Below are positions 39,750 through 59,699 of a stretch of 64,000 nucleotides of DNA, piece by piece. Both the position numbers and the translations under genes were made by a program. The notes under the pieces were generated by a model. The model made no database searches and was not told where the DNA came from. It worked only from the letters and a program-made list of their open reading frames with translations. Numbering within the stretch: the first letter of the stretch is position 1; each line of letters starts with the position of its first letter. The stretch lies in the IMG/VR virus record IMGVR_UViG_3300030085_002029, positions 1 through 64,000 of that record. The stretch is one strand, 5' to 3'. This stretch comes from a virus.

Positions 39750-39900
39750 TACTTTTATTTTTAGGTAGTGATTTTATTTTACCGTTTTCAGTACGAGCGT
39801 ATCTATGTGTTTCTGTTTCCATGCTGGGAATTAACGTGCCGCAGTACTTTCCTTTACCATACTTCCAGCATATTTTTTTTCCTTTTTTCTTACGAGCCAT
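39742..39900 (-). CDS. small basic Cys-containing protein (52 aa)
   Basis: ATG at 39900 encodes ARKKKGKKICWKYGKGKYCG and ends SLPKNKSNE. Two Cys nine residues apart (11 and 20) may bind metal or form a disulphide. It overlaps the 87-residue gene by 8 bases and ends where the membrane-protein gene begins, so it fills the gap of the operon. Confidence 0.7.
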   Translation of the reverse strand: MARKKKGKKICWKYGKGKYCGTLIPSMETETHRYARTENGKIKSLPKNKSNE

Positions 39901-40175
39901 TACTTATCTTTTTTATTACTTAATTTGCCGTCAACTTCTCTACACCAAAAAAGTATTTCATCTACTTTTTCTTCTAAGTCTTCAATATGTTTTGTTTGCC
40001 ACTCTTGTTTTAAATCATATTCAATACGATCTATTACAGCTGGTGGCATTTTTTTAGCTTCTTCTATGTCAGCTTGTAAAGTATAATACATTCCTACAAA
40101 CATAGAGGTTATAACTATTAAGCTTATGACAGTTTTAAGATCTATCTTAAATTCAGTTCCCTCAGAGATTTTCAT
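39900..40175 (-). CDS. single-pass membrane protein next to the amidase (91 aa)
   Basis: Start taken at ATG 40175 (MKISEGTEFKIDLKTV), which overlaps the amidase stop by 14 bases; earlier Met codons at 40181 and 40217 are possible. One hydrophobic helix (VISLIVITSMFVGMYYTL) is followed by a charged coiled stalk. Position between holin/amidase-type genes suggests a spanin or lysis accessory, not proven. Confidence 0.65.
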   Translation of the reverse strand: MKISEGTEFKIDLKTVISLIVITSMFVGMYYTLQADIEEAKKMPPAVIDRIEYDLKQEWQTKHIEDLEEKVDEILFWCREVDGKLSNKKDK

Positions 40176-48298: not shown

Positions 48299-48330
48299 CA
48301 CAAATTAAATACGACTACTTAAAGATAATA
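48299..48330 (+). promoter_or_regulatory. early promoter motif copy 2
   Basis: ACAAATTAAATACG then 10 bases and GATAATA (48324-48330). It precedes the 79-residue gene by 42 bases, the one case with a real leader. Confidence 0.75.
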
Positions 48331-52004: not shown

Positions 52005-52085
52005 AGCGAGGTCAGGTGATGGAGCAGTTGTAGAAACGCCATCAGACTGTTCTAGACATGAGAGGTTCGACTCCTCTCTCTCGCT
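52005..52085 (+). ncRNA. tRNA-like structure, anticodon unclear
   Basis: 81 bases. Ends AGCGAGG (52005-52011) and TCTCGCT (52079-52085) pair over 7 positions with one wobble. A T-arm-like GAGAGG-TTCGACT-CCTCTC (52060-52078) has a normal 7-base TTCRANY loop. A D-like arm is GATGG/CCATC, with a long loop containing AGTTGTAGA. The anticodon arm is poor: TTCTAGA could be the loop (CTA) but needs a 3-base bulge. It may be a decayed tRNA or a tRNA mimic rather than a working tRNA. Confidence 0.35.
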
Positions 52086-52090
52086 CTAAA

Positions 52091-53441: not shown

Positions 53442-53862
53442 AGAAGGCGAAATACGTCAAGAAAGACTAGTTGAGCTAGTTAAAAACCATCTTGGTTTAT
53501 CTATATCTACTAGCTTAGATGATTGGTCTAATGTGGATTGTAGAGTATACAGTGAATCTACTGCAGACGGTTATGACTTATTTGTTGTAACTCAGCAAAA
53601 AGATCATCCAATTATATGTGAAGATTGTTACCAATATGATCACGATCTTGCTGATGCAGTAAGAGAAGAGATTAGATATGGTGTTGAAACTTTTTACATT
53701 GATATAGATTTATACAACGATTGCTACATGGAAGACATGCTAGTAGAGATGTTTGTAGATTATGTAGAAGATATAATTGAAGATGAAGACTTAGATATAA
53801 CACTAGAAGAAATTAACTACTTAAAAGAAGAATATGGCATCACAGAAGAAGTTGAAGACTGA
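53425..53862 (+). CDS. strongly acidic early protein (145 aa)
   Basis: MAKYHREGEIRQERLVELVK, then CEDCYQYDHDLADAVREEIR and a C-terminal third rich in Asp and Glu (DYVEDIIEDEDLDITLEE). Pronounced negative charge suggests mimicry of DNA or binding to basic proteins, as in antirestriction proteins; not established. Confidence 0.6.
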   Translation: MAKYHREGEIRQERLVELVKNHLGLSISTSLDDWSNVDCRVYSESTADGYDLFVVTQQKDHPIICEDCYQYDHDLADAVREEIRYGVETFYIDIDLYNDCYMEDMLVEMFVDYVEDIIEDEDLDITLEEINYLKEEYGITEEVED

Positions 53863-54112
53863 ACAAAAATTACCTAAATGGTTTAAAGGTATGATATACA
53901 AAGAAGGTGAAACAGTAACAAATCCTTTCTCAGGTGAATCATACGAACTAACAGGTGTAGAACTATCATTGTATGACTTTATAATAGGTTGTCAAATGGT
54001 ATTTGATTCAGCACCAAGTACTATGACAAATAAACGAATTAATGAATTTCAAAAAGCATTAAACTGGTTTAGGGTGAATAACCCTGAAGCATACTACGTG
54101 TTGTTAGATTAG
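53834..54112 (+). CDS. conserved-style early protein (92 aa)
   Basis: PKWFKGMIYKEGETVTNPFSG and ELSLYDFIIG with LNWFRVNNPEAYYVLLD, a layout seen in a small family of marine-phage proteins of unknown function. Ends in TAG. The structured RNA region follows. Confidence 0.65.
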   Translation: MASQKKLKTEQKLPKWFKGMIYKEGETVTNPFSGESYELTGVELSLYDFIIGCQMVFDSAPSTMTNKRINEFQKALNWFRVNNPEAYYVLLD

Positions 54113-54126
54113 TAGTAGTTTAGTTT

Positions 54127-54286
54127 CCGCGAATAAGCGCGTGAGGTGTGTCGAGACAGTAACCGAACCAGACATAGATGGTAGTGTCAGTATCTCTTCT
54201 TACTCACTTGGCAAGCTCGTACTTAAGATACCTCAGTCATGGCTGTATAGCTATATGAAGCAGGTGACGGTACGGGCTATTCGTGG
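54127..54286 (+). ncRNA. structured RNA element copy A (covarying two-stem)
   Basis: Outer stem CCGCGAATA (54127-54135) with TATTCGTGG (54278-54286), 9 pairs. Inner stem GCTCGTAC (54215-54222) with GTACGGGC (54270-54277), 8 pairs, with the loop ending CAGGTGACG. The two 3' strands are directly adjacent. It lies in a 321-base region (54113-54433) with no gene. No known RNA family recognised. Confidence 0.7.
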
Positions 54287-54340
54287 TAGCACGGGTATGA
54301 GTGTGATACCGTAACTTGACCTAAAAACAAACAAGCGTGC

Positions 54341-54432
54341 TCACGAAATATATAAGGCGACCAGGCATCCTTTGAGTGCCCATACTTTCCCTTCGGTGTA
54401 AGCCCACAGGTGACGGTATGGGCTTTTCGTGG
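54341..54432 (+). ncRNA. structured RNA element copy B
   Basis: Outer stem TCACGAAA (54341-54348) with TTTCGTGG (54425-54432). Inner stem GCCCATAC (54378-54385) with GTATGGGC (54416-54423), 8 pairs, loop ending CAGGTGACG. The start codon at 54434 is one base after the element. Base pairs differ from copy A yet are kept. Confidence 0.75.
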
Positions 54433-54433
54433 T

Positions 54434-54622
54434 ATGAAAAGATTTATAAAATTTACACTTATATGGATTAGTCAAAATTTATCAATTCCTTTTTGGATTG
54501 TAGGACACGTGCATTTATCTGTGAATATATATAAAGATGTATACGAACTAGCGAGTTCACTAGGTATGAACTTAATAGTTTTGATTGGTTTTATTATTGA
54601 TTACAAACAAAATGCAAAATAA
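54434..54622 (+). CDS. small membrane protein (62 aa)
   Basis: Start ATG 54434 is preferred over an in-frame GTG at 54410, which lies inside RNA element B. Sequence MKRFIKFTLIWISQNLSIPF, and a C-terminal hydrophobic segment (MNLIVLIGFIIDY). Function unknown. Overlaps the methyltransferase start by 11 bases. Confidence 0.65.
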   Translation: MKRFIKFTLIWISQNLSIPFWIVGHVHLSVNIYKDVYELASSLGMNLIVLIGFIIDYKQNAK

Positions 54623-55130
54623 AGTAAAAAATAATTCAACATATGGTGAGGTTACAACAATAGGCAATGTTCAAGTTTTAAGTTATTTACATCCTCATAT
54701 TCCAAAAGAAAATGGCAAATTTTTAGATATTGGCTGTGGTTACGGTAAATTAGTTACATATATGGCAGAAAATACTAATATGTATTGCGCAGGAATAGAT
54801 ATAGATCAAGAAAAAATTAGCATTGCAAATACGATCTTGTGGACAAACCAAGCTGAAAGAATAAAATTTATTTATGGAGATATACAAGACAACTGGAAAC
54901 TAGTAGCTGAAGCTGATTTTATATTTATGAACTGCGTAACTTGGGATCCACAACTTGTTTCATCTATTTTTCAAAAATCAAAAGGAATAATTATTCACAA
55001 TCACATTAAAGCGGTTAAACTTAAAAATGGAAAATGGTGGACATACCCAGGTGAACCTGCTCCAGTTATGTGTAGTTGGGAAAAAGAAGACCAAAAATAT
55101 TACAAACTAGATAGTAAAATAGTAAAATGA
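54612..55130 (+). CDS. DOT1-like SAM methyltransferase, first of a tandem pair (172 aa)
   Basis: Rossmann-fold methyltransferase: motif I FLDIGCGYGKL, acidic GIDIDQEKI, and ADFIFMNCVTWDPQLVSSI, which parallels the motif after the catalytic strand in DOT1 (VFVNN-F-P). SAM binding is probable; substrate unknown. Start taken at ATG 54612 (MQNKVKNNS); an in-frame upstream start lies within the membrane gene. It has a diverged twin directly downstream. Confidence 0.7.
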   Translation: MQNKVKNNSTYGEVTTIGNVQVLSYLHPHIPKENGKFLDIGCGYGKLVTYMAENTNMYCAGIDIDQEKISIANTILWTNQAERIKFIYGDIQDNWKLVAEADFIFMNCVTWDPQLVSSIFQKSKGIIIHNHIKAVKLKNGKWWTYPGEPAPVMCSWEKEDQKYYKLDSKIVK

Positions 55131-55621
55131 ATAAAATTGTTAATATATCAACTTATGGTGAAGTAAACACTTTAGGTTATAAAGATGTTTTAAATGTTAT
55201 TCCAGAAAAAATAAAAACAGGTAATTTTATAGATATAGGATGTGGATATGGTAAATTAATACAATATATAGCAGAACACACAGAAATGAATTGTACAGGT
55301 ATTGAAATAGACAATGATAAAATAAAAATTGCAAAGAAAATACTTTGGACTAATAGACAAACTAAATCACGAATAAAATTTTTAGCAGCAGACATACAAG
55401 ATAACTATAAATTAGTGGAAAATGCTGATTTTATATTCATGAATTCAATATGTTGGAAACCTGAATTAGTAAAAGAAATAATTAAAATTTCTAATTGTAT
55501 AATACTTACTAACTCGGTAACTGCCACTAAACATTTAGATGTAGAAAAAATTAAAGTAAACTGTAGTTGGTCGCTTAAACCTCAAACGTTTCACAAACTA
55601 AATACGATTACTAATAGATAA
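55127..55621 (+). CDS. DOT1-like SAM methyltransferase, second of a tandem pair (164 aa)
   Basis: FIDIGCGYGKL, GIEIDNDKI and ADFIFMNSICWKPELVKEI align with the first copy across the whole length, so the two arose by duplication. Overlap with the first gene by 4 bases. Its last codons (NTITNR) lie in promoter motif copy 7, showing the motif sits inside a coding end. The pair may methylate two different sites or partners. Confidence 0.7.
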   Translation: MNKIVNISTYGEVNTLGYKDVLNVIPEKIKTGNFIDIGCGYGKLIQYIAEHTEMNCTGIEIDNDKIKIAKKILWTNRQTKSRIKFLAADIQDNYKLVENADFIFMNSICWKPELVKEIIKISNCIILTNSVTATKHLDVEKIKVNCSWSLKPQTFHKLNTITNR

Positions 55622-55623
55622 TA
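55592..55623 (+). promoter_or_regulatory. early promoter motif copy 7
   Basis: CACAAACTAAATACG, 10 bases, GATAATA (55617-55623). Start codon 5 bases on (55629). It overlaps the last codons of the second methyltransferase gene. Confidence 0.8.
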
Positions 55624-55628
55624 TAAAT

Positions 55629-55925
55629 ATGGATAAAAAAACAATGAACGAACTAGCTGATCTTATTATAGCTAAGCTAGAATTAAAACAACAACAATGG
55701 GACGATGAATTTCACAATTCCATTGTAGATATGTACGGTAAAGAAGGACATAAAGAGGCGTTTGTAATGTCTGAAGAAGAAATGCTAATCGGTGAATTAG
55801 CTAGATTACAAACTATTCTTATGATATATGAAAACAACGAAGAGTATGAAAAAGCTGCAATTGTACTCAGTAAATTAAACGCAGTAAAATCTAAATTAAG
55901 AAAAGGAGATTATGACGATGATTAA
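55629..55925 (+). CDS. helical early protein (98 aa)
   Basis: MDKKTMNELADLIIAKLELK, with ELARLQTILMIYENNEEYEK and AAIVLSKLNAVKSKL, a UvrB/C-like helical pair. Widespread in phages next to ligase, role unknown. Overlaps the ligase gene by 14 bases. Confidence 0.65.
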   Translation: MDKKTMNELADLIIAKLELKQQQWDDEFHNSIVDMYGKEGHKEAFVMSEEEMLIGELARLQTILMIYENNEEYEKAAIVLSKLNAVKSKLRKGDYDDD

Positions 55926-56745
55926 ACCTATGCTAGCGCATAAATATGATCCTGATAAAGCTGATTATCCTGCATACATACAACCAAAACTAGACGGTGT
56001 AAGATGTGTATTTACAAAAGATGGAGCATACAGCAGAACAGGTAAAGAATTTAAAAATGTAGATCACATTAAAAAAGCATTAAAAAACGTGTTCTTAGAA
56101 AACCCTAGTCTAATATTAGATGGCGAACTATACAACCATGGACTAAAACATGATTTTGAAAAGATTATTTCATTAGTCAGAAAAACTAAACCAACTGAAG
56201 AACACAGACAAGAAGCAGCAGAGCTTATACAATATCACGTATATGACGTAGCTAATTTTGCTCACGCAACTTATACTAACAGATTATCTATGCTTACAAG
56301 TATGGTTAAATACAACCATATTATATTACCTGTAGAAACTAAAATTGTATTAGACTATGACGAAGCTGTTAAACAACACAATAAATACTTAAAACTAGGT
56401 TACGAAGGTAGTATATACAGATCTACAGATGGTAAATACAAAAATACTAGGTCATGGGACTTAATGAAGTTCAAAGACTTTGAAGATTCAGAAGCCACAA
56501 TTGTAGGCTATGAAGCAGGTAAAGGTAAGAGGCAAGGCACGATTGGTAAGTTTATTATGCTAGATGACGAAGGCGTTGAGTTCGGCTGCCCACCGGGTAA
56601 GGGATACGACTACAAGGATCTAGCAGCAATGCTCGATAACATTCATGACTATATAGGTCAGCGTGCTACCTTTACTTATTTTCAACGAACTCAAGCAGGT
56701 AGTTATAGACACCCGCTTTATAAATGTATAAGAAATTATGAATAA
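55912..56745 (+). CDS. ATP-dependent DNA ligase (277 aa)
   Basis: Nucleotidyltransferase motif KLDG at 26-29 (QPKLDGVR; Lys26 is adenylylated), then LILDGELYN (motif III), GYEGSIYR (motif IV) and LMKFKDFE (motif V). Size is that of a compact phage ligase with an OB-fold end (RATFTYFQRTQAGSYRHPLYK). Seals nicks during replication and recombination. The start may be 55912 or 55918. Confidence 0.9.
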   Translation: MTMIKPMLAHKYDPDKADYPAYIQPKLDGVRCVFTKDGAYSRTGKEFKNVDHIKKALKNVFLENPSLILDGELYNHGLKHDFEKIISLVRKTKPTEEHRQEAAELIQYHVYDVANFAHATYTNRLSMLTSMVKYNHIILPVETKIVLDYDEAVKQHNKYLKLGYEGSIYRSTDGKYKNTRSWDLMKFKDFEDSEATIVGYEAGKGKRQGTIGKFIMLDDEGVEFGCPPGKGYDYKDLAAMLDNIHDYIGQRATFTYFQRTQAGSYRHPLYKCIRNYE

Positions 56746-56860
56746 AAAAGATATATTAAATATAATAAACACTTATCAGAATTATTACAATGATTTTGTC
56801 AATGTAAATGAAAAAGACTTAAATAATATATATGAGAAAGTTAATATGGAAATTATATAA
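56738..56860 (+). CDS. small protein after ligase (40 aa)
   Basis: MNKKDILNIINTYQNYYNDF, mostly helical. ATG overlaps the ligase end by 8 bases. No family; small size limits confidence. Confidence 0.45.
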   Translation: MNKKDILNIINTYQNYYNDFVNVNEKDLNNIYEKVNMEII

Positions 56861-56918
56861 TGATAATATGATCAGTGAAGAAGTTGCATTATTATTATTA
56901 GAAAAATACTACGAGTAA
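56832..56918 (+). CDS. micro-ORF (28 aa)
   Basis: MRKLIWKLYNDNMISEEVALLL and a charged end. The amphipathic pattern looks protein-like. Its last codons form the 5' outer strand of RNA element copy C. Confidence 0.35.
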   Translation: MRKLIWKLYNDNMISEEVALLLLEKYYE

Positions 56919-56980
56919 AATCAGAGATTGCGCGCGCACCTTGGTACACCTCATGCTGGAAACGGTATGAGGTTTCGTGG
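56909..56980 (+). ncRNA. structured RNA element copy C
   Basis: Outer stem CTACGAG (56909-56915) with TTCGTGG (56974-56980), 7 pairs with two wobbles. Inner stem ACCTCATG (56948-56955) with TATGAGGT (56966-56973), 8 pairs with one wobble, loop ending GGAAACGG. The gene's ATG (56983) is two bases beyond. Weaker outer stem than copies A and B. Confidence 0.6.
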
Positions 56981-57634: not shown

Positions 57635-57758
57635 AAGAGATTACATGGATTACCATGGACATGCTACATTAGAAGAGATTATATACAAATATAATTTAGA
57701 CGCAGAAGAACAAATGTTTTATCAAACATTATGTGACACAAGGTCTAATAATAAATAG
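57621..57758 (+). CDS. small early protein (45 aa)
   Basis: MGASKRDYMDYHGHATLEEI, then a helix. Overlaps the previous gene by 14 bases and ends in TAG. The TGTGACA hairpin family copy 3 overlaps its last codons. No family. Confidence 0.55.
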   Translation: MGASKRDYMDYHGHATLEEIIYKYNLDAEEQMFYQTLCDTRSNNK

Positions 57759-57776
57759 TAATAGGCTAATGTCATA
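57731..57776 (+). repeat. TGTGACA hairpin family copy 3
   Basis: TGTGACACAAGGTCT and AGGCTAATGTCATA are the two arms, matching the arms at 47867-47912 and 48618-48664. The ATG at 57769 lies in the 3' arm, so pairing would hide it. The stem is weaker than in copies 1 and 2. Confidence 0.4.
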
Positions 57777-58392
57777 TAGAGCTATGAAATACTTAAATGA
57801 TAACCGCATCGTGTACAGGAAGTATTCAGATGATCAACCAACTCAAGAGTATGAGTGGGGTTGGTACTATGCTGATGGTACTCACGGGTATTATAGTCTA
57901 TTTAATAGTGACGCTAAGATCAATACTTTAAGATCTTTAAAATGGCATTTGTTGACTTTATGGTGGTTAAATCCTGACATGGATTTAGATAAATTTAAGC
58001 AACTATCTGAGGTTATTTGTTATAAACCAAATGGTTTTGTAACATTTAACGTAACACCTGATTTATTAAATAAAGTAATACAAGATGTTTTTATGCAAGA
58101 TCTTGAACAACCACCTAAAAACAAACTACGTAAAGTAGTATTTAAAGATGGAACAGGATTAGATAAAAAACAAAAACTTAGTATTGTAGGACAATTAATA
58201 GGTAGAAAAAGTATAGTTGATGAAGAAGCTATATATCAATATATGTTAAATTTAAACGATATTGGTGAAAATATTACTATTAATAAACTAGCTAAATACT
58301 TTAAATGTTCAAGTAGAACAATACATAGAAATATGAGCGATGAGCTAAGAAAAGAAAAAGATCTTTTAAATATAGAAAATGAAAAAATATAA
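57769..58392 (+). CDS. helix-turn-helix protein (207 aa), probable replication or transcription regulator
   Basis: C-terminal HTH: TINKLAKYFKCSSRTIHRNM at about 173-192, a helix-turn-helix of the kind in DNA-binding regulators. N-terminal two-thirds alpha/beta with Trp- and Tyr-rich patches (YEWGWYYADGTHGYYSLF). Start ATG 57769; a GTG at 57733 would add 12 residues. It precedes the sigma factor gene, overlapping by 14 bases, so it may act with it. Confidence 0.65.
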   Translation: MSYRAMKYLNDNRIVYRKYSDDQPTQEYEWGWYYADGTHGYYSLFNSDAKINTLRSLKWHLLTLWWLNPDMDLDKFKQLSEVICYKPNGFVTFNVTPDLLNKVIQDVFMQDLEQPPKNKLRKVVFKDGTGLDKKQKLSIVGQLIGRKSIVDEEAIYQYMLNLNDIGENITINKLAKYFKCSSRTIHRNMSDELRKEKDLLNIENEKI

Positions 58393-59128
58393 TGTAAAAA
58401 ACTATATTAGATATAAAGAAGATGTTAAGCTAGCTATTGCAGCTATACCAATTAAAAACTTTATAGATTATACACCTAGCGAACTTAAAGTTATATTTTT
58501 ACCATTAGTTGAGAATATAGGTAGAAAGTTTGCTACTAGTCAAGAAGCTTCAGGTGTTATGTCAATTATGGATATAATACAAGAAGGTAGTTTGCAACTA
58601 TGTAAAGCTGTAGATAAAATAGATAGAGAAAAATTATTTGTATCTGAAGATATAGAAAAAACATTAAAGTCTTTTTTAGCAAAAAGAATACGTGGTGGAA
58701 TACGTAGAGCTATTGACACTAACAGAGGTACAATGCGTATACCTGAACATAGGCTTAATGAAATGCGTAGTACTAAAGATGAGAAAATGGTTAGAATGTT
58801 TTTTAATTCTATATTTTTATCTTATGACGCGAAACAAGATGATGAAGATATGGTTTATCAAATACCTGATAAATCAGATCCTTATAATGAAACTTTATTA
58901 AATGCTTATTTAATGAGTTTATTAAACAAACATCTTGAATGGAACGAAACATTTGTACTGAGCAAAAGTTATGGATTAGACGGACCTAAGTGGTCTGCTA
59001 ATGAAATAGCAACAGCTTTAGAGATAAAAGGTGTGTCAGCTTATGTACGAGTTTCAGAGTTAAAAAAACAAGCTGTAGAGAAATTAATAGCCAACGTGGA
59101 TCACTCACAAGTACTTGATTATCTGTGA
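58379..59128 (+). CDS. phage sigma-70-family factor (249 aa)
   Basis: Region 2-like MDIIQEGSLQLCKAVDKID (about 64-82) and SFLAKRIRGGIRRAIDTNRG (about 98-117) give the core-binding and -10-melting part. Region 4-like FVLSKSYGLDGPKWSANEIA (about 193-212), followed by a helix and AYVRVSELKKQAVEKLI. Small sigma without region 1. It probably directs host RNA polymerase to phage promoters; the seven early motifs are candidate targets but the match is not shown. Confidence 0.8.
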   Translation: MKKYNVKNYIRYKEDVKLAIAAIPIKNFIDYTPSELKVIFLPLVENIGRKFATSQEASGVMSIMDIIQEGSLQLCKAVDKIDREKLFVSEDIEKTLKSFLAKRIRGGIRRAIDTNRGTMRIPEHRLNEMRSTKDEKMVRMFFNSIFLSYDAKQDDEDMVYQIPDKSDPYNETLLNAYLMSLLNKHLEWNETFVLSKSYGLDGPKWSANEIATALEIKGVSAYVRVSELKKQAVEKLIANVDHSQVLDYL

Positions 59129-59171: not shown

Positions 59172-59699
59172 ATGACAATTAACGAAAAATTATCAAAAAT
59201 CCAAGTAGAGTTTAAATCAAAGAAAAGTAGATTTAACTCATTCGGTAAGTACTACTTCAGGTCTGCCGAAGATATTCTCGAAGCAACAAAACCCTTTTTA
59301 AAGGAGCTTAATGTAACAGTTACAGTACACGAGGAACTAGTATCTTTTGACCCGCCAGTTATGCAGGTTACTGCAAAAGTGTCTGACGGTAAAGATAGTA
59401 TAGAATCCAAAGCTGTAGTAGGCGTTGATCTTGAACAAAAGGGTATGCAAATGCCACAGAAATATGGTGCTGCAAGTTCATACGGTAAAAAGTATGCACT
59501 TGGTAATCTGTTCTTGATTGATGACACTCAAGATTCAGATGCAACTAACACACATGGTAAATCATCTGCCAAGCAAAAGATGACAAACGAATCGTTAGCT
59601 AAAGCTAAGGAGTACATCGCAAAAGGCGGTAGTCTAAACGCTATTAAAGCTAAATACGAAGTAACACCTAAGCAAGCTGAATTATTAACCACACTATGA
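59172..59699 (+). CDS. erf: ERF-family single-strand annealing protein (175 aa)
   Basis: Characteristic KYYFRSAEDILEATKPFLK, LGNLFLIDDTQDSDATN and MPQKYGAASSYGKKYAL of the ERF superfamily. ERF proteins anneal complementary single strands in phage recombination. The exonuclease gene directly downstream overlaps by 4 bases, a recombinase-exonuclease pair. A possible promoter (TTGTAA and TATAAT, 59135-59151) lies just before. Confidence 0.85.
   Translation: MTINEKLSKIQVEFKSKKSRFNSFGKYYFRSAEDILEATKPFLKELNVTVTVHEELVSFDPPVMQVTAKVSDGKDSIESKAVVGVDLEQKGMQMPQKYGAASSYGKKYALGNLFLIDDTQDSDATNTHGKSSAKQKMTNESLAKAKEYIAKGGSLNAIKAKYEVTPKQAELLTTL

Follow-up and report, generated by a model that had tools for sequence, protein, structure and literature searches.

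Transfer RNA (tRNA) punctuation is known from mitochondria, and mobile stem-loop cassettes are known from T4-type phages, in which the PeSL (Promoter early Stem-Loop) cassettes combine an early promoter with a terminator-like hairpin. Transfer-messenger RNA (tmRNA) is known from phages (PMC9004378), and Flavo-1, a structured RNA of Flavobacteriaceae, is mentioned in PMC9723704. Here we describe an RNA element with two stems, P1 and P2, that occurs three times among the early genes of a virus (positions 1 to 64,000 of the 64.6-kb IMG/VR virus record IMGVR_UViG_3300030085_002029, our record G000; this whole stretch of 64,000 nucleotides is hereafter the window) and recurs in related phages. We tentatively regard the element as an intercistronic RNA punctuation mark that occupies the position of a tRNA-like structure, has its topology and probably does its job; the finding of tRNA-like structures at the same slots argues for punctuation rather than for a simple riboswitch-type gate.

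A two-stem RNA family

A sequence-only reading of the window had proposed three copies of a covarying element, A, B and C, and all three lie exactly where it had placed them:

54127..54286, plus strand: copy A, with P1 at 54127-54134 / 54279-54286 (CCGCGAAT/ATTCGTGG)
54213-54221 / 54270-54278, plus strand: P2 of copy A (AGCTCGTAC/GTACGGGCT), with a long loop
54135-54212, plus strand: third arm of copy A, long
54341..54432, plus strand: copy B, with P1 at 54341-54348 / 54425-54432 (TCACGAAA/TTTCGTGG)
54378-54385 / 54416-54423, plus strand: P2 of copy B (GCCCATAC/GTATGGGC)
54349-54377, plus strand: third arm of copy B
56909..56980, plus strand: copy C, with P1 at 56909-56915 / 56974-56980 (CTACGAG/TTCGTGG)
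56948-56958 / 56963-56973, plus strand: P2 of copy C (ACCTCATGCTG/CGGTATGAGGT), closed by GAAA
56916-56947, plus strand: third arm of copy C

Copy B is followed by a single T and copy C by GT, and these two copies end, as had been noted, 1 and 2 nt 5' of ATG 54434 and ATG 56983, respectively; the ATG of copy A is lost, and AGC occupies its position. Copies B and C are more stable than shuffles (folding z -2.4 and -3.3), whereas the folding of copy A is weaker (z -1.8) and its predicted fold lacks P2.

Three copies alone could be a product of chance, but the family search changes that. A covariance model built from P2 plus the next 12 nt gave 52 strong matches (E<1e-5), distributed over 30 of the 40 related phage records that pattern scans and synteny had supplied; the window copies matched with E values of 4.5e-6 (A), 4.4e-9 (B) and 6.3e-9 (C), and three further copies were read by eye. 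The proposal of a covarying element is thus borne out by further compensated copies: the family has 55 or more members, spread over 32 or more phage contigs, with 1-6 copies per genome, all in gene sense, and four fixed slots in the early operon hold them. The general plan is P1 (CCACGAA/TTCGTGG and variants), a third arm, P2 (AGCTCRTAC/GTAYGGGCT and variants), 9 nt holding the P1 3' strand, and the AUG. The two-stem plan of the earlier reading stands, and its "variable middle" is corrected to a swappable third arm of 0 to ~130 nt, the P2 loop being variable as well (from GAAA to ~50 nt). P1 has 7-8 bp in most copies and ~5 bp plus an internal loop in compact ones (CCACG TT...TTT CGTGG), and the 3' strands of P2 and P1 are 0-2 nt apart in all copies, the contiguity of a T-arm with an acceptor stem.

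In counts that lean toward structure, because the P1 5' strands were assigned chiefly through sequence anchors and the alignment drops the arm and the loop, P1 and P2 together are paired in 95.7% of cells over 26 distinct rows, P2 alone is paired in 98.5% over 22 distinct rows, and both-sided changes occur at four pairs (P2 pairs 2, 6 and 7, and P1 pair 2). Shuffles and slid helices serve as the control: the covariation score of 0.246 compares with 0.176+/-0.009 in shuffles (0 of 500 reach it), and pairing drops to 30-45% when the helices are slid. The U.G wobble at P2 pair 4 is retained in 53 of the 55 copies, being replaced only in window copies B and C, and this retention argues for RNA. 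P2 stands 9 nt from the AUG in either register of P1 (TTTCGTGGT and TTCGTAGGT), even where P1 shifts by one base. Single-sequence folding gave a median z of -4.4 and predicted P2 in 46/47 and P1 in 43/47 cases; P2 of copy A and P1 of three slot-4 copies with TTTGTAG were not predicted.

The element is an RNA family absent from Rfam. No match at gathering was found in the Rfam library, Flavo-1 included, in agreement with the earlier remark that no named family was recognizable; a lenient Rfam search (E up to 5) returned nothing for the element and one chance-level match elsewhere, and copies A, B and C gave neither an RF00005 or RF00023 match nor an ARAGORN call. Since the element failed the T-loop test, with no 5-bp T-stem bearing a TTCRANY loop (P2 has 9-11 bp and loops such as CAAAA, GAAA and TAACC), we do not class it as a tRNA or tmRNA. 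BLAST of the region against a phage database found no relative of the element, and a scan with a C-type pattern gave no match. Most loci from a loose pattern scan were discarded as chance matches. When bacterial and archaeal genomes were scanned with a pattern, a single match appeared, on the 4.3-kb contig L193 (JABSQH010000001.1); this contig, binned as Ilumatobacteraceae, has the gene order of the phage group together with the element and is probably a mis-binned phage fragment.

Placement at start codons and interchange with tRNA-like structures

The element sits between reading frames on the sense strand, directly 5' of a start codon, and the genes downstream, one of which encodes a Pyr_excise protein, belong to ~12 unrelated families. 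An ATG follows ~85% of the copies, a proportion that the search itself somewhat favors, because the covariance model and some of the scan patterns contain TATG.

From the sequences 5' of the element-led genes in relatives, and then from a search for a T-arm plus a 7-bp acceptor, we found tRNA-like structures throughout the phage group, with a T-arm and an acceptor strand ending 3 nt 5' of an ATG. Type 1 reads GGGCGTG-AAATGG-(45-160 nt to the T-arm)-GCAGGTTCGATTCCTGC-CACGTCC-ACT-ATG and is a tmRNA reduced to its tRNA-like domain, in which varied hairpins stand in for the mRNA part (mini-tmRNA). The Rfam tmRNA model gave one type 1 match at 1e-22 and four others, below gathering, at 2e-14 to 9e-10, and neighbors such as those in L083 and L210 are recognized by a tRNA/tmRNA family or by ARAGORN. 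A dedicated scan found 15 contigs in which type 1 ends exactly 3 nt 5' of an ATG, and 13 of the 13 type 1 places listed open an open reading frame (ORF) of 24-149 codons. Type 2 reads AGCGAGG...GAGAGGTTCGAATCCTCTCTCTCGCT-CT-ATG. The window itself holds one type 2 structure, given here with mini-tmRNAs of relatives, many of which lie 3 nt 5' of an ATG:

52005..52086, plus strand: type 2 tRNA-like structure at window slot 1, with an acceptor-like 7-bp stem, a middle arm and the T-arm GAGAGGTTCGACTCCTCTC
L083, 8171-8252: mini-tmRNA
L210, 1390-1480: mini-tmRNA
L213, 2654-2725: mini-tmRNA
L209, 382-479, minus strand: mini-tmRNA
L205, 556-654: mini-tmRNA

The window structure at 52005-52086 was called by neither ARAGORN nor Rfam, and an extra ~60 nt separate it from the ATG; it is conserved in G005, G006, G007, G009, G010 and G026, and in G005, G007 and G010 its homologues stop 3 nt short of an ATG. 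Minimal forms of ~40 nt, with an acceptor and a T-arm and without D or anticodon arms (L078:4047-4086, L085:5406-5445, L076:2034-2073 and L002:3123-3164), resemble minimal RNase P/RNase Z substrates. In folds of both kinds, the 7-bp acceptor and abutting T-arm of the tRNA-like structures share the topology of P1/P2.

P1/P2 and the tRNA-like structures are interchangeable at the same slots. The MSKQQ gene of slot 2 begins 1 nt after P1/P2 in G021, G024, G025, G036 and G038 and 3 nt after type 1 in G002/L002, and in L078 the upstream gene of this slot is followed by type 1. Likewise, the MKHIKIT/MKKIKVT gene follows P1/P2 in G031 and type 2 in G005/L191, and slot 1 (MKCNHN versus MNNQICKCG/MKNKCKCG) holds P1/P2, type 2 or neither. 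The two kinds are spread in a complementary manner, with type 1 in G011-G017, P1/P2 in G000-G008, G010 and G020-G039, and both in G002. They also share sequence: a 21-nt third arm (GGCATGAGTGTGATGCTGTAA) of the G037 P1/P2 elements recurs in type 1 of L078, close versions of it occur in G021, G038 and G004, and 17 12-mers are common to both kinds, compared with 0.47 in shuffles. These shared arms and slots together suggest common descent of P1/P2 with the tRNA-like structures, though no T-loop remains. In an unrelated phage, an unannotated stretch between tRNA-Asn and tRNA-Gln (GGGCCTGAATGG...GCAGGTTCGACTCCTGCCAGGTCCACT; L216 ~439-530, Microbacterium phage Gack PP978884, ~39854-39945) looks like the same kind of anticodon-less mini-tmRNA.

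The position of the P1 5' strand relative to the upstream ORF depends on the slot: it lies inside the last codons at slot 4, 0-1 nt from the stop at slot 2, ~10 nt after it at slot 1 and 16-20 nt after it at slot 3. The ORFs beside the window copies are as follows:

53834..54112, plus strand: upstream neighbor at slot 3, ending ...YYVLLD*
54434..54622, plus strand: ORF MKRFIKFT... 3' of copy B, of no known family
56870..56918, plus strand: 3' end of a small ORF (...MISEEVALLLLEKYYE*), whose last codons are the 5' strand of copy C P1
56983..57456, plus strand: ORF MNIFYLH... 3' of copy C, pyrimidine-dimer DNA glycosylase-like (Pyr_excise)

Homologues of the MKRFIKFT... ORF in G005 and G035 likewise begin 1 nt after an element, and the start codon of the MNIFYLH... 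ORF (56983) is fixed by homology.

In the window, late genes occupy the minus strand, and a plus-strand early operon of many small genes runs from ~48 kb. The portal, terminase and primase-helicase have their closest relatives in Cellulophaga, Flavobacterium and Maribacter phages, which makes a flavobacterium the probable host; the phage family with P1/P2 elements is marine and appears to infect Flavobacteria-type bacteria. Bacteroidetes ribosomes do not use Shine-Dalgarno pairing (PMC9976891, PMC6847099), and initiation in F. johnsoniae is favored by A at -3, -6, -12 and -13 and by little structure (PMC6847099). Leaders of the other early genes in the window are rich in A and poor in G+C, whereas those of the element-led genes are G+C-rich and structured; over the final 15 nt, the fraction of A is 0.0 and 0.07 for the two element-led genes and mostly 0.4-0.7 for the other early genes. 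Given the preference of F. johnsoniae for A-rich, unstructured leaders, the element-led starts seem poorly sited, unless the structure is taken away or put to use.

Several local candidates were rejected. AGGTGA, present in copies A and B, is missing from most copies and so is no Shine-Dalgarno sequence; P2 followed by TTTT is no intrinsic terminator, as there are only 3-4 T and CG interrupts; hammerhead, HDV-like and twister-type ribozymes, suggested by the GGAAACGG and GGTGACGG loops, are contradicted by loops that vary between copies and by zero Rfam ribozyme matches; and integron attC-type and other DNA sites are disfavored by the compensation, the retained U.G pair and the fixed AUG distance.

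A repeated promoter-like motif (ACAAACTAAATACGA..AGATAAT) stands 3' of several ATG-less copies. A promoter-like motif, (A)CAAACTAAATACGAnnACTnnnAGATAATA, is repeated upstream of early genes (near 48303, 48845, 49485, 51748, 52817 and 55598) and is also found 3' of elements without their ATG. A NUMOD1/HTH-like protein (57733-58392; E 6e-4, under the curated cut-off) is encoded beside a sigma-factor-like protein (PHROG 351; 58379-59128), which might recognize the repeated motif.

Proposed punctuation and the alternatives

If the element is a punctuation mark, P1 would stand for the acceptor stem and P2 for the T-arm, its 3' strand running into that of P1, and the variable third arm would take the position of the D and anticodon arms. 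The polycistronic early transcript would fold into P1/P2, and a processing enzyme would cut at the base of P1, by analogy with RNase Z (the tRNA 3' endonuclease), which cuts just after the discriminator position. In the tRNA-like types the discriminator position is followed by CT-ATG, and in P1/P2 the P1 stem is followed by T-ATG or GT-ATG; a cut just after a discriminator-like position would therefore place the AUG 0-2 nt from the 5' end. Cleavage at the P1 base would leave the downstream AUG 0-3 nt from the new 5' end, and the near-leaderless ORF could start without Shine-Dalgarno pairing or an A-rich leader.

Several points weigh against this reading. P1/P2 is not a canonical RNase P/RNase Z substrate, because it lacks the T-loop (TTCRANY), P2 has 9-11 bp instead of 5, and P1 of the compact copies has only ~5 bp plus the internal loop. 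Flavobacterium has few leaderless mRNAs (5.5% in F. psychrophilum; PMC9723704), and the presumed host is identified through phage relatives. Approximately 8 of the 55 copies have no ATG at the fixed place, the exact sharing of arms comes mostly from one arm, and the tRNA-like structures may abut ORFs merely through genome compactness.

A translational gate or coupling device is a possible, though rather unlikely, alternative: P1, covering the nine bases before the AUG, would keep the start closed until a ribosome finishing the upstream ORF opened it, and P2, at -10 and just outside the mRNA exit, would position the 30S subunit. The P1 5' strand overlaps the upstream stop or lies within ~20 nt of it, most other early genes in the window overlap or almost touch the upstream gene, and the P2-AUG spacing stays constant although P1 slips; a gate explains the closeness to the stop and the fixed distance equally well and may act in addition to punctuation. 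It does not account, however, for tRNA-like structures that need no opening at the same spot, for copies followed by a promoter-like motif instead of an ATG, or for long insertions between the upstream stop and P1.

The element might instead be a recombination cassette in the style of the T4-type promoter-stem-loops, whose boundary hairpins let early genes swap by annealing-type recombination, RNA structure being secondary (termination or mRNA stability). One element stands before ~12 unrelated genes, differing genes occupy a single slot, third arms and P2 loops are shuffled among copies, the downstream gene is cleanly lost at the element end in G006, G007, G010 and G026, and the window phage encodes an annealing protein:

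59172-59699: Erf-like annealing protein

Gene shuffling along the elements can be seen and may be either a side effect or an additional function, and this explanation is compatible with the others; as the primary function we consider it improbable, since pure DNA homology needs no compensatory changes, retained U.G pair or fixed AUG distance. Direct ribosome recruitment, in which the tRNA-like or P1/P2 fold would attach to the 30S platform, or to a ribosomal or phage protein, and bring the AUG to the P site, is more doubtful still: it would suit a structured RNA at an exact AUG distance, a conserved U.G pair in P2 that could be a protein contact, and ribosomes without Shine-Dalgarno pairing (PMC9976891, PMC6847099), but P1 ends 1-2 nt before the AUG, where mRNA in the 30S channel must be single-stranded, so that P1 must melt, and no known binding motif was found in the element. 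A metabolite riboswitch would account for a structured leader with a conserved core at start codons but is very improbable, given the unrelated downstream genes, the hypervariable arm and loop, the lack of a conserved unpaired pocket and the lack of an Rfam match.

Comparison with described systems

Flavo-1 resembles the element in that it, too, is structured and lies 5' of genes in this host group. The PeSL cassettes are likewise mobile structured elements between early genes that accompany modular gene shuffling; unlike them, the phage element has no promoter between stem and AUG, its pairing is compensated, and the AUG follows P1 by 1-2 nt. The tRNA-like domain of tmRNA (RF00023) is closer: its enclosing stem (7 bp, compared with 7-8 bp for P1 in most copies and ~5 bp in compact ones), inserted variable part and arm abutting the stem 3' strand are arranged as in P1/P2, and phage relatives carry a version cut to the acceptor stem, a D-loop-like stretch and the T-arm at the same slots. 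P1/P2 differs in lacking the T-loop, the G3.U70-type acceptor, the D-loop sequence and any tmRNA match, and the phage mini-tmRNAs differ in having no mRNA-like domain and in falling mostly under the gathering score. Anticodon-less mini-tmRNAs missed by annotation programs may be regulatory parts and not broken genes.

No report of start-codon tRNA-like marks in phages was found in the open-licence literature, and no Rfam family covers the element. The presence of tRNA-like RNAs in relatives at the spot that P1/P2 occupies hints at a mechanism, not described before, by which viral messages would be cut or opened where genes start. Bacteroidetes and their phages initiate translation with no Shine-Dalgarno pairing. 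The compact marks, each of which takes the place of one tRNA-like domain at a start codon, may bear on the opening of early phage genes in this group.

The proposed likeness to mitochondrial tRNA punctuation is that a tRNA-shaped structure between frames would mark the cut that leaves near-leaderless mRNAs; the differences are that the phage marks are mostly not tRNAs, that they stand in an early operon and that their processing is a supposition. If the cleavage occurs, tRNA-style cutting of messages would be added to phage gene expression. We speculate, with more reserve than for the punctuation reading itself, that this lineage swapped the ribosome-binding leaders of many early genes for interchangeable tRNA-shaped marks with exchangeable arms, and that the host tRNA-processing machinery cuts the message into near-leaderless mRNAs, which would make the system a bacterial-virus counterpart of mitochondrial tRNA punctuation.

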